From: Dechloromonas sp.
GTDB taxonomy: Bacteria > Pseudomonadota > Gammaproteobacteria > Burkholderiales > Rhodocyclaceae
Assembly: GCA_011391255.1 (NCBI GenBank)
Contig: JAABQV010000002.1
Coordinates: 1-64,000 of the forward strand
Length of the DNA: 64,000 nucleotides
Direction: 5' to 3'
Positions 41,643 to 46,057 of the stretch are shown one piece after another (the first letter of the stretch is position 1; each line of letters starts with the position of its first letter). The notes under the pieces are model-generated. The model was not told the DNA's origin, searched no databases, and saw nothing but the letters and a program-made list of their open reading frames with translations. The translations under genes and the position numbers were made by a program.

Positions 41643-41754
41643 AACGCGCGGGTTTGTTTAACGCATTGTGTCCATTGCAGCGCGCTGCGTAAACCTTGCA
41701 GTGCACCATCGCTGACACGATTTGATGTCACAAAGCCTGAGCGCCGCATCGTTC

Positions 41755-41760
41755 TATAAT
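41755..41760 (+). promoter_or_regulatory. Candidate -10 of the ATP-grasp operon
   Basis: Perfect TATAAT about 90 bp upstream of the chosen ATP-grasp start. It falls inside the longer ORF in the track and supports the internal start. No good -35 is visible. Confidence 0.4.
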
Positions 41761-41850
41761 GCTTGCTTGACGGACATTCCGGAAAAGTTTTTCAGATCCC
41801 GGCGGCCTGTGCCACTTCGGCGACTAACTGTTACGGTCAACACCAAAAAA

Positions 41851-43200
41851 ATGGCTAAAAATCGTACCCTGCTGCTGTTCAATTTCGACTGGGATGCCGA
41901 GGGCTTTTCCCGCCACAATGGGCAGCACGATTTCGACAATGCCGGATTTGACCTCTTCAGTTTCCCGAGTAACGCCCACCTCCTGCACTTTCAGATGTCG
42001 CCGTTTGTTGAGCGACTGGCCAGGGTGGCGCTCAAAAAAGGGTGGCGGGCCGTCACCTCCTGCCACGAGCAATTTGGTGCCTTGGCTGCCGCGCTGCTCG
42101 CCGAACGCATGGGCTGGCCGGGCACCAAACCCGAAGCCGTGCTCGCCTGCCAGCACAAACTCTACGCCCGGCAGATTCTCGAGCAAGTTGCGCCCGAGGC
42201 CAATGTGGCGCACGGTCTGATCGATGCCCGATACGGTGCTCCGGTACCGGACGGCCTGCCCTACCCGCTTTTTGCCAAGCCGATCAAAGCCGCGTTCTCG
42301 GTACTCGCCAAGCACGTTGCCAATCACGACGAATTAACTGCCCACACGCGCTTTGGCTGGGGCGAACGCTGGGTTATCGAGCATCTGGTCGAGCCTTTCG
42401 AGCGCATCGCCCGCCAGCGCCTGCCATCAGCCAGCAGTGCCCACCGGCTGATGTGGGAAGCCCCGGTCAAGGCCGAACAATTTAATCTGGATGGCTACGT
42501 TTTCGAGGGCAAAGCGCACGCCATCGGTGTTGTTGATTCAATCATGTACCCCGGCACTCAAGCCTTCATGCGCTTCGACTACCCAAGTCTGTTGCCCGAT
42601 CCGATCCAGGCTCGCGCCCTCGATATTGCCGCTCGCTTCCTGAAAGCGGTTGGCTTTGATCACGGCCTGTTCAATATGGAATTTTTTTACGATGCGGCGA
42701 GCGGCCGGCTGACTGTCATCGAATTCAACCCACGCCTCGCTTCGCAGCTGGCTGATCTTTATCGCCGCGTCGAAGGCCTTGATCTCTACGCCATGGCGCT
42801 GAATCTGGCCTATGGCCAAGACCCTAGAACTGCGCCGCGTCTTGCCCCCAGCGCCGGTGCCGCGTCGAGTTTCGTTTTCAGGCATTTTGACCCGTTGACC
42901 GCAGCCAAGATGCCGACGCCAGCCCAACTCAGCGACTTCCAGAAACACTTTCCAGACAATCTGCTGCTGCGCTTCCCGAAAGACATCAAATCGCTGGCGC
43001 GCGACTACAAATGGCTGGGCAGCCACCGTTACGGCGTCATGCACCTCGGCGGGCGCGACGCCACTGACCTCGAGCAACGCTGTCGCGCCGCCAGCGCCCA
43101 ACTCGGCTGGCCGGCGCCCTATGCGGAACAAAGCGTTACAAACTGCCACCAAGCGCCATGCTATTTTGCCCGGCAATCCACCGCCGGAGTCGCCCCATGA
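41851..43200 (+). CDS. ATP-grasp domain protein
   Basis: 449 aa from MAKNRTLLLFNFDWDAEGF. The track's longer start at 41722 lies upstream of the -10. ATP-grasp features are LACQHKLYARQILEQ, PLFAKPIKAAFSVL (Lys of the ATP site), the acidic metal site in FNMEFFYDAASGRLTVIEFNPRLA and a terminal QLADLYRRVEG. It should form an amide or ester bond from ATP, but substrate and partner are unknown. It overlaps the YHS gene by ATGA and leads an ATP-grasp-YHS-YkgJ operon. Confidence 0.85.
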   Translation: MAKNRTLLLFNFDWDAEGFSRHNGQHDFDNAGFDLFSFPSNAHLLHFQMSPFVERLARVALKKGWRAVTSCHEQFGALAAALLAERMGWPGTKPEAVLACQHKLYARQILEQVAPEANVAHGLIDARYGAPVPDGLPYPLFAKPIKAAFSVLAKHVANHDELTAHTRFGWGERWVIEHLVEPFERIARQRLPSASSAHRLMWEAPVKAEQFNLDGYVFEGKAHAIGVVDSIMYPGTQAFMRFDYPSLLPDPIQARALDIAARFLKAVGFDHGLFNMEFFYDAASGRLTVIEFNPRLASQLADLYRRVEGLDLYAMALNLAYGQDPRTAPRLAPSAGAASSFVFRHFDPLTAAKMPTPAQLSDFQKHFPDNLLLRFPKDIKSLARDYKWLGSHRYGVMHLGGRDATDLEQRCRAASAQLGWPAPYAEQSVTNCHQAPCYFARQSTAGVAP

Positions 43201-43775
43201 AATCCCTGTTCGCTGCCATTATTCTTGTCTTGACTCTCAATGGCTGCGCGATGATCGCCCAGAATCCCGGCCAGAAATACAGCCCGGTCAACGCCACTGC
43301 CGAAGATGGCGCCCCGCACCTGATGCTCAAGGGGCACGATGTCGTTGCCTACTTCACGAAAAACACCCAGCTGATTGGCAAACCCGAATTCAGCAGCCGC
43401 TATCAGGATGTCGATTTCCGCTTTGCCAGCGCCGAACACAAAGCCCTATTCGATCAAGCGCCTGAAAAATACCTGCCGCAATTCGGCGGTTATTGCGCCA
43501 ACGGTATCGCCTACGGCATCCCCTGGGGTGGCGATGCCGATACCTGGCTGATGATTGATGGCAATCTCTACATTTTTGGCGGGCAAGGCTCCAAAGACGC
43601 CTTTGAGCTCGACCCCGCCGGCAATCTCGCCCTGGCCAATAAATACTGGACTGAAGAAATCGCCGGCAGCAACAGTTTCATTCAGCGCAGCAAGCGTCTG
43701 ATCTTCCGCGTTCCGCATTACAAGAGTGGCGATGATTTGAGCAAAGAAATCGCCGCCAAAAAGGCCAAAGGCTGA
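43197..43775 (+). CDS. YHS-domain lipoprotein
   Basis: 192 aa from MKSLFAAIILVLTLNGC, lipobox Cys17. Residues about 45-120 are a YHS-type metal-binding domain (GHDVVAYFTKNTQLIG, DVDFRFASAEHKALFDQAPEKYLPQFGGYCA). The C-terminus is ordinary. Free-standing YHS lipoproteins are probably periplasmic copper or iron binders, a guess here. The start overlaps the ATP-grasp stop and its own stop overlaps the CTG start of the next gene. Confidence 0.85.
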   Translation: MKSLFAAIILVLTLNGCAMIAQNPGQKYSPVNATAEDGAPHLMLKGHDVVAYFTKNTQLIGKPEFSSRYQDVDFRFASAEHKALFDQAPEKYLPQFGGYCANGIAYGIPWGGDADTWLMIDGNLYIFGGQGSKDAFELDPAGNLALANKYWTEEIAGSNSFIQRSKRLIFRVPHYKSGDDLSKEIAAKKAKG

Positions 43776-44113
43776 ACACCCCAGCGATCTCCTGCGAGAC
43801 CTGTGCCGCCAGCTGTTGTCAGCTTGAGGTGCTACTTATGGGCGATGACGAGGTGCCGCGTTATCTAACGCGCGAAGACGCCTGGGGCGGTACGGTAATG
43901 CGCCGCCTGGACGACGGCTGGTGCGCCGCCCTCGACCGAGAAACCCGTTTATGCACCATCTACCAGCGCCGCCCCGGCGTCTGTCGTGACTACGAAATGG
44001 GTATCGGCGATTGCCTGATTGAGTTCGTGCGTTTGTTACCAATGAAGGACAGCCTAAGCCAAAGTGCCATTTTGCTTAGTGGTTTGGTTTCACCAAAAAA
44101 AGCCAACGACTGA
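43772..44113 (+). CDS. YkgJ-family cysteine-cluster protein, probable CTG start
   Basis: 113 aa if translation begins at CTG 43772. The track GTG at 43829 would cut off the cluster SCETCAASCCQLEV that defines the family (Zn/Fe-S binding). Codons upstream of the cluster contain no ATG, GTG or TTG back to the in-frame stop at 43733. CTG 43772 lies 2 codons from AAAGG and forms a CTGA overlap with the YHS stop, matching the ATGA overlaps upstream. Other residues match YkgJ: DGWCAALDRETRLCTIYQRRPGVCRDYEMG. Function unknown. Confidence 0.75.
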   Translation: MNTPAISCETCAASCCQLEVLLMGDDEVPRYLTREDAWGGTVMRRLDDGWCAALDRETRLCTIYQRRPGVCRDYEMGIGDCLIEFVRLLPMKDSLSQSAILLSGLVSPKKAND

Positions 44114-44158
44114 AAGGCGGAGCTTTTTTGGGGAGGGGCAAAACAAGGAAGAGCGATT

Positions 44159-44212
44159 AAACCGTGGGTGTCCCCTGTTTTTCTTTGGAACAAATAGGGG
44201 ACGCCACGGTTT
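44159..44212. repeat. REP-like inverted repeat, copy A
   Basis: AAACCGTGGGTGTCCCCTGT and AAATAGGGGACGCCACGGTTT form imperfect inverted arms around a 10-nt centre. The same AAATAGGGGAC(AG)CCACGGTTT core recurs at 44865 and 58933-59000. It lies 5 bp from the stop of the antitoxin gene. Confidence 0.8.
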
Positions 44213-44216
44213 CTGA

Positions 44217-44495
44217 TCAAGCCGCCGCCTTGACCGCATCCGGGTTCTGCGACGCAATGCGCAGCAAGGTTTTTGCTGCACCTGAAGGCTCTCGCCGCCC
44301 CTGCTCCCAGTCCTGCAAAGTGCGTACTGAAACACCGAGCAAGTGGGCGAACTCGCTTTGCGACATGCCAACACGGTTGCGCGCTTCTGTTGCAGCAGAT
44401 ACTTCGACAGTCGTTATCCGCACCGCCTTACTTGTTTTCATCTGGCGAACAGAAGCCAGTAGATCGTTTTGAAATTCTTCCAGCTCTTTATCCAC
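44217..44495 (-). CDS. XRE/HTH antitoxin, NadS/HigA-like
   Basis: 92 aa. The C-terminal half holds a helix-turn-helix (GMSQSEFAHLLGVSVRTLQD followed by WEQGRREPSGAA) typical of NadS/HigA-type antitoxins. It should neutralise the RelE-like toxin encoded just upstream, which it overlaps by 8 nt, and autorepress from the palindrome before the toxin gene. Confidence 0.88.
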   Translation of the reverse strand: MDKELEEFQNDLLASVRQMKTSKAVRITTVEVSAATEARNRVGMSQSEFAHLLGVSVRTLQDWEQGRREPSGAAKTLLRIASQNPDAVKAAA

Positions 44496-44799
44496 GCACC
44501 ACCTCCGCTTTCAGTTTTGCCAGAAACTCGGCTGGCAGGTTATCGAACTTGGCTTTTGCGTAGGCAATCAGCAACCAGATTCGTCCATCCAGCACGTTGA
44601 AATAAATCACCCGAGCACCGCCACGCTTTCCCATACCAGAACGACTCCATCTGACTTTCCGGCAACCGCCCGATCCGGGAATTACATCACCCGCCAACGG
44701 ATTAGCAGCAATCCACTGGATAAATTCGAGACGTTCGCTTTCTGACCAGATGGATGTAGCGTAACGCTGGAATATCTCAGTTTCGGCAACGGTGTGCAT
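44488..44799 (-). CDS. RelE/HigB-like toxin
   Basis: 103 aa from MHTVAETEIFQRY. The six extra residues of the track ORF overlap the palindromic operator. RelE-superfamily features: LEFIQWIAANPLAGDVIPGSGGCRKVRWSRSGMGKRGGARVIYF. These are ribosome-dependent or free mRNA endonucleases. The toxin gene precedes the antitoxin gene, the HigBA order. Confidence 0.88.
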   Translation of the reverse strand: MHTVAETEIFQRYATSIWSESERLEFIQWIAANPLAGDVIPGSGGCRKVRWSRSGMGKRGGARVIYFNVLDGRIWLLIAYAKAKFDNLPAEFLAKLKAEVVRG

Positions 44800-44809
44800 G
44801 AGCAAATAA

Positions 44810-44824
44810 TACGGCAATGCCGTA
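44810..44824. promoter_or_regulatory. Palindromic operator of the RelE/XRE pair
   Basis: TACGGCAATGCCGTA is a 7-bp-arm palindrome 11 bp upstream of the toxin start, the expected place for autoregulation by the antitoxin. Confidence 0.6.
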
Positions 44825-44864
44825 CATTGTCAATCGACAAATAGCGAAGTGAAAAGCGAGCGGT

Positions 44865-44883
44865 AAATAGGGGACCACGGTTT
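44865..44883. repeat. REP-like half element, copy B
   Basis: AAATAGGGGACCACGGTTT matches one arm of the elements at 44159 and 58933. The inverted partner arm is missing here, so this is a solo arm between two toxin-antitoxin modules. Confidence 0.65.
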
Positions 44884-44905
44884 CAAGGTCGCCAGAGAAA
44901 GAGGA

Positions 44906-45121
44906 TTAGCCAGCGGCCTTTTCGAGCAGAGCAAGGCCGGTTTCGGTTTGAGCAGCACCACGAGCGGCACGAATCTGGAAACGGGTTTCTGCGTCGAACT
45001 CAGTGAGCATCAGGGTCGTCATTTCATCAATAAGACGATTTAGCGGCGTACCACGGCTTTTGGCAAGCGCCTTGAGACGGCGATGCTTTTCATCTGGTAA
45101 ACGAACGGTCAAGGCGGTCAT
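44906..45121 (-). CDS. RHH-type antitoxin partner of the PIN toxin
   Basis: 71 aa from MTALTVRLP with an AGGAG site. It has the CopG/Arc ribbon-helix-helix pattern (TVRLPDEKHRRLKALAKSRG followed by TPLNRLIDEMTTLML). It starts 2 nt after the PIN toxin stop, so toxin comes first, which is the reverse of the usual vapBC order. Expected to bind the PIN protein and its own promoter. Confidence 0.8.
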   Translation of the reverse strand: MTALTVRLPDEKHRRLKALAKSRGTPLNRLIDEMTTLMLTEFDAETRFQIRAARGAAQTETGLALLEKAAG

Positions 45122-45123
45122 GG

Positions 45124-45540
45124 TCAAAGCTCCTTCAAAAAATCTTCTGGCGAAACAACTCTCAGTTGCGGAAAGCGTAGTTCCATCCGCTGCAGGTCGC
45201 GCAGATTTCGCGTGACAATGAATTCAGCACCCCCGGCAATTGCCAGTTCGACCAAATGATTGCCGCCTTCGTCGGGCAAATTGGGTCGCCATGCGTAATA
45301 GACTCTCACCCACTCGGCTTTGGACAAGAAAACATCAAGCAAGGTTTGCTGCTCTTGTTCACTAAGCAGCGACTTGATCAACAAGGCATCGCGCCCGAGC
45401 ACATCTTCGTATTCAGCAAGTAATGCCGCGCCCATCAACGGTGTGAATTGCCCACGCAAACAGGCCGCTATCGTCTGATTTGCCGCGCCTTTGCCAAGGC
45501 AGGCACCGAGAAATATATTGGTATCAATCACTGCTCTCAT
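45124..45540 (-). CDS. PIN-domain toxin
   Basis: 138 aa from MRAVIDTNIFLGACLG. The longer track ORF runs through the IS30 relic. The acidic ribonuclease residues are visible: Asp in VIDTN, Glu in LLAEYEDVLG, Asp in NLPDEGG and the last TRNLRDL. The COG1569-like group are VapC-type nucleases cutting RNA. It should be neutralised by the RHH protein encoded next. Confidence 0.85.
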   Translation of the reverse strand: MRAVIDTNIFLGACLGKGAANQTIAACLRGQFTPLMGAALLAEYEDVLGRDALLIKSLLSEQEQQTLLDVFLSKAEWVRVYYAWRPNLPDEGGNHLVELAIAGGAEFIVTRNLRDLQRMELRFPQLRVVSPEDFLKEL

Positions 45541-45604
45541 AGTTTTTATGGTGTCAAAAACGCCACCTAAAACAAAGGCCATCAAGCACTGAATAATAGG
45601 GGGC

Positions 45605-45951
45605 GGCCTCAAATATGAAGTGCAACACGCACTGGGAAGTAAAGTGTTGCGATGGAAACGACCTACAAAAATTTGAGTTGTGAAGAACGAACGATGATCC
45701 AACTGAGTCTTGAGCAGGAAATGCTGCGATCTGAGCTCCTGCCTTACGTAGCAAGCGTCAAGATTGAGATCAAACCCGAAGGGTTGCCAGACATTCGTGA
45801 CGCTGATGACATTATTTCTTTGGCACTCGCTGCAGTTGGCCGTGCCGATGCACTGGTCAGGGGCGACGGTGACATTCTGGCAGTTAAAACGCAGTTTCAC
45901 ATTCCCACCCCAACCATCGTCAAGTTGCCTAACTGGCTTCAGGCGTACTGA
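45605..45951 (+). pseudogene. IS30 transposase N-terminal relic fused to a PIN-domain remnant
   Basis: The ORF at 45652-45951 begins METTYKNLSCEERTMIQLSL, the N-terminus of IS30-family transposases, preceded by an IS-end-like GCAACAC...GTGTTGC (45622-45650). After about 22 codons the reading frame continues as the C-terminal half of a PIN domain (PDIRDADDIISLALAAVG, then ADALVRGDGDILAVK). The transposase body and the PIN N-terminus are both missing. The chimera probably arose by an IS insertion and deletion in an older PIN gene. It is unlikely to be functional. Confidence 0.72.
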
Positions 45952-46057
45952 CGTACATCAGCCCGAAAAATATTTCTCATACACCCGGGCAAAAAGTTGG
46001 CATCATAGACACCCCATGCGCTGCAAGCCTTTTAGCGCCCAAATTCAAGGAAGCCTT

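Follow-up and report, generated by a model that had tools for sequence, protein, structure and literature searches.

A YkgJ-family gene of Dechloromonas lacking a canonical start codon, and a candidate CTG start on the stop codon of the gene upstream

Where does translation of a YkgJ-family protein begin when no ATG, GTG or TTG codon precedes the cysteines that define the family? The question was raised by a stretch of 64,000 nucleotides of Dechloromonas sp. (contig JAABQV010000002.1), hereafter the window. The open frame at 43736-44113 (+), preceded in frame by TGA at 43733-43735, matched the Pfam family PF03692 (CxxCxxCC, "YkgJ family") with an E value of 2.3e-10 and 41.5 bits, the curated cut-off being 23. 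Like other members it has the C-x2-C-x3-CC cluster (CETCAASCC, 43793-43819, +), which was kept in orthologs, and the C-terminal CTIYxRRPxxCR region, but it differs from them in having no canonical start codon and a replaced C-terminus. The presence of the cluster cysteines is that of a metal-binding-type protein, the binding itself being putative; among the titles and abstracts searched, the literature held nothing useful on the function of YkgJ. An earlier note on this DNA had stated that all canonical start codons lie after the cluster, and this held: from 43736 to the first cluster codon at 43793 there was no ATG, GTG or TTG in the ykgJ frame, and the earliest ones were GTG at 43829-43831 (+) and ATG at 43838, both 3' of the cluster. 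A start at this GTG would drop all four cluster cysteines.

Two genes precede ykgJ. A gene for an ATP-grasp-like protein (41722-43200, +; an open reading frame with weak Pfam ATP-grasp matches) is joined by an ATGA stop/start overlap (43197-43200, +), shared by the closest relative, to a YHS-domain lipoprotein-like gene of 192 aa (43197-43775, +; NCBIfam NF041384, E 4.5e-31, with PF04945 just below its cut-off), the upstream partner of ykgJ. At the end of the YHS gene the sequence reads CTGA (43772-43775, +), so that a CTG (43772-43774) overlaps the TGA stop (43773-43775) just as ATGA does one gene upstream, which is how the earlier note had described the junction. With this CTG as start, the YHS and ykgJ genes would overlap by the four nucleotides of NTGA pairs, and the proposed ykgJ-family coding sequence would comprise 113 aa (43772-44113, +).

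The closest relative (G017, its locus also found as L026) carries an ortholog with 92% amino-acid identity to the window gene, and was used for comparison. From the CTG on, the two genes showed 26 synonymous and six replacement differences (dN/dS 0.051). The stretch from the cluster to the internal GTG held four synonymous changes and no replacement, which indicated that the cysteine cluster is translated as part of a protein. Upstream of the CTG, changes in the ykgJ frame were 0 synonymous and 3 replacement and those in the YHS frame 2 and 1, respectively; although these counts are tiny, the pattern is the one expected if YHS alone is read there, and only the YHS frame appears to be decoded in this part. 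The earlier note had proposed to look at the same junction in close relatives. The relative kept CTGA and likewise had no canonical start before the cluster, and this makes a sequencing error confined to a single assembly less likely. Canonical starts fail to account for the conserved coding region of the window gene, as is required of bacterial CTG-start genes. Relatives with an upstream ATG, named in the note as evidence that would count against a CTG start, were found only where the upstream neighbour differs, as in G097, with an ATG at -11 behind another gene.

At the 3' end of ykgJ, positions 44032-44113 (+) had no match in relatives and form a replaced tail at the edge of an insertion. 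About 2 kb (44032-46046) were missing from G097 (L108), in which homology stopped within the 3' end of ykgJ at 44031 and resumed at 46047; the insert, which replaced the last codons of the window ykgJ, holds an HTH antitoxin-like gene and a RelE-like gene (44217-44817, -) and further small genes. Of the 77 genomes of the genus, just two had the YHS gene (G000, which is the window genome, and G017), and the search of the genus gave no further YHS locus; this suggests that it is a recent arrival.

How much the CTGA itself says depends on what chance predicts. The ykgJ frame is -1 relative to the upstream gene, and an NTG in it needs a Cys, Trp or stop TGA codon of that gene at the same place, so that few NTG codons are expected upstream. 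Every TGA stop of the upstream gene yields NTGA in the ykgJ frame, and as C is the commonest wobble base (GCC in 50 of 79 Ala codons of iscX), CTGA is the default junction. On its own it is not above chance and is weak evidence; consequently, the case rests on a coding region that needs a start and on comparison. A synonymous change of GGC to GGA at the end of the YHS gene would turn the junction into ATGA; it was found at neither YHS locus, which counts against a CTG start.

A Shine-Dalgarno motif before the downstream start of NTGA pairs is usual, not universal. The AAAGG that the earlier note had placed before the CTG is literally there (43767-43771), but it abuts the CTG with a spacing of 0 and lends weak support as a Shine-Dalgarno sequence. 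The sole match with usable spacing (7 nt) is AAGG at 43761-43764 (+), whose duplex energy with the 16S tail, -3.2 kcal/mol, was equalled by 31% of window positions; in the closest relative AAGG was missing and the equivalent energy was -0.1 kcal/mol. Shine-Dalgarno support for the window CTG was weak, the match being at background level and not conserved. Among the CTGA junctions, two behind moeA and five behind iscX had stronger matches (-6.4 to -6.8 kcal/mol). RNA structure at the YHS/ykgJ junction was not unusual (z -0.71).

The comparison was extended to the whole genus, where 45 of 77 genomes carried a ykgJ ortholog. Fourteen of these orthologs had no ATG, GTG or TTG within 25 codons of the cluster, and 11 of the 14 had none anywhere in the open frame. 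Where orthologs start with ATG, their reading frames take in the cluster. In 12 of the 14 start-less orthologs the upstream stop formed part of a CTGA, in four unrelated neighbourhoods: behind the YHS gene in two (G000 and G017), behind iscX at the end of the isc operon in five (G010, G012, G036, G091, and G096), behind moeA in four (G026, G029, G082, and G089), and behind hslO/Hsp33 in one (G079). The identity of the upstream genes rests on a Pfam search of one member per neighbourhood and on shared C-termini. In G079 and G029, no other codon than this CTG, over a span of 25 codons, differed from ATG by a single base. At sister loci the same position held GTGA (G027) or TTGA (G067) behind moeA, and TTGA (G090) behind iscX. 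The recurrence of CTGA in four unrelated neighbourhoods, together with GTG and TTG at sister junctions, favours termination-coupled reinitiation at CTG. On a tree of the 45 ortholog proteins the start-less label was scattered, with 11 changes, seven of them forced by starred branches, and clustered no more than in shuffles; a single origin of the start-less state is not supported by this tree of short proteins and low support.

The iscX neighbourhood offers a further view of the junction. The ykgJ-family gene lay directly 3' of iscX in 14 genomes of the genus (L003, L012, L159, L164, and other loci), and elsewhere behind moeA or hslO; the placement after iscX suggests a link with iron-sulfur assembly. 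In all 14 isc operons the fdx-iscX junction was ATGA, which indicated that the ykgJ junction is the one marked by the near-cognate state. In two members (G071 and G077) iscX ends in TAA (GTAATC and GTAATT, respectively) without NTGA, and the start there must therefore be something other than CTG. GTG or TTG codons at -14/-17 in six members of the iscX group were considered as starts and rejected, since these positions are Ala-Trp codons of iscX. G071 and G085, identical at the junction and over the part of ykgJ that entered the tree, differed exactly at this site (CTG vs. GTG), and for both reasons these codons look like synonymous drift in iscX, incidental to ykgJ. A conserved small protein (MTYEEHLDEVTTLI...) with no Pfam match was encoded directly 3' of ykgJ in two neighbourhoods (L003, 1262-1459, -; L120, about 1277-1474, -).

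Other near-cognate codons could serve in place of CTG. In 13 of the 14 iscX-linked orthologs an ATT or ATC has the final base of the stop as its first, be the stop TGA or TAA (TGATT, TAATT; a -1 overlap), with GAGG 7 nt before it and diverging codons after it; the exception, G090, has the canonical TTG at the stop. ATT, which works well in mycobacterial reporters (PMC4633059), or ATC may thus be the start in the iscX group. In the window and its closest relative, on the contrary, the CTG is followed by AAC or ACC and not by ATT. The window candidates would be AGG at 43769 or ATC at 43787, two codons before the cluster; the nearest AAAGG is, however, 15 nt from this ATC, and half of the start-less orthologs (seven of 14) had GTC or GTT at -2, so that the position is not a shared start. 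A near-cognate start other than CTG is on this evidence unlikely. A separate start would be unneeded if ribosomes shifted by -1 at AAAAAG (43758-43763), shortly before the YHS gene ends, and so produced a YHS-YkgJ fusion. The -1 frame of ykgJ and a run of five to six A at both YHS loci agree with this, but no such run occurred at the iscX, moeA, and hslO junctions, and the fusion would join YkgJ to a lipoprotein-like exported protein. Moreover, outside the genus a YHS homolog (G741) that is not followed by ykgJ stops at nearly the same position. We regard frameshifting as quite improbable.

The two remaining explanations dispense with a translated cluster or with a translated gene. GTG 43829, as the first canonical codon, would be the choice of a gene finder, and a product starting there would lack the cluster; the purifying selection on the cluster codons described above and the cluster within ATG-started orthologs both argue against it, no Shine-Dalgarno match precedes this GTG (0.4 kcal/mol), and such a start is hardly credible. 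Gene loss would account for the absent start if ykgJ were untranslated or decaying in the window, as the replacement of its 3' end at the insertion edge might suggest. The low dN/dS, a frame intact in two genomes, and a start-less state common to many orthologs make decay very improbable, if slightly less so than the GTG start.

A YkgJ-family protein made from CTG 43772 by reinitiation after termination of YHS is the explanation that we consider probable. Ribosomes terminating at the TGA of the YHS gene would remain on the mRNA and slip back one base to the overlapping CTG, where initiator tRNA would reinitiate, reading the codon as fMet, to give the 113-aa protein. Judging from the codon, YkgJ would be made in small amounts relative to YHS. 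Overlaps of this type, in which a near-cognate start sits on the upstream stop, would recur in the orthologs of the genus behind iscX, moeA, and hslO. Initiation at CTG, its coupling to upstream termination, and the low output are all three inferred from sequence. The reading of the earlier note stands to the extent that a non-canonical start at the stop overlap best explains the data across four neighbourhoods; its Shine-Dalgarno argument proved weak, and support for the CTG start rests on comparison instead. More speculatively, and with considerable doubt, a small gene for a metal-binding-type protein may have been attached repeatedly, in one betaproteobacterial genus, downstream of genes for iron-sulfur, molybdenum-cofactor, and redox functions by way of a near-cognate start on their stops; such a setting would hold its product at a small, constant share of the upstream protein.

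For annotation, gene finders limited to ATG, GTG, and TTG would miss or truncate ykgJ, with loss of the defining cysteines, in about one third of the members of the genus that carry it. Orthologous junctions with CTG, GTG, TTG, and possibly ATT also form a natural series for gauging near-cognate codons at sites to which termination has already brought a ribosome.

Termination-reinitiation at NTGA overlaps of -4 nt is established (PMC6728339, PMC10666635, PMC12548453). As in those pairs, the stop and the proposed start of the YHS/ykgJ junction share T and G, and the downstream start lies in the -1 frame; these papers, in contrast, deal with ATGA and GTGA or give the overlap as NTGA, whereas the start proposed here is CTG. 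When their texts were searched by word, CUG was absent from all three and CTG from PMC6728339 and PMC10666635. The earlier note had called coupled starts other than AUG, GUG, and UUG rarely documented, and in the literature searched this was true of CTG at coupled junctions; CTG starts as such are known, and by ribosome profiling they make up 0.7% of the CDS start codons of C. crescentus (PMC4117421). In mycobacterial reporters CTG was a poor start (PMC4633059). The near-cognate CTG is common to the C. crescentus genes and to ykgJ, in which, unlike the former, it is read from sequence alone and recurs, within one gene family, where it overlaps a stop. The infC gene of the same genome as the window (L182, contig C4) provided a positive control for calling a gene start-less: no ATG, GTG or TTG precedes its conserved start, and it probably begins with ATA. 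Genes of the infC type, with an ATA or ATT start, resemble ykgJ in being conserved and without a canonical start. The non-canonical start of infC serves autoregulation through IF3, and herein lies the difference, as nothing suggests such a loop for ykgJ. The proposed CTG of ykgJ belongs to a rare kind of start that has been described before; what is unusual is its recurrence in one gene family.
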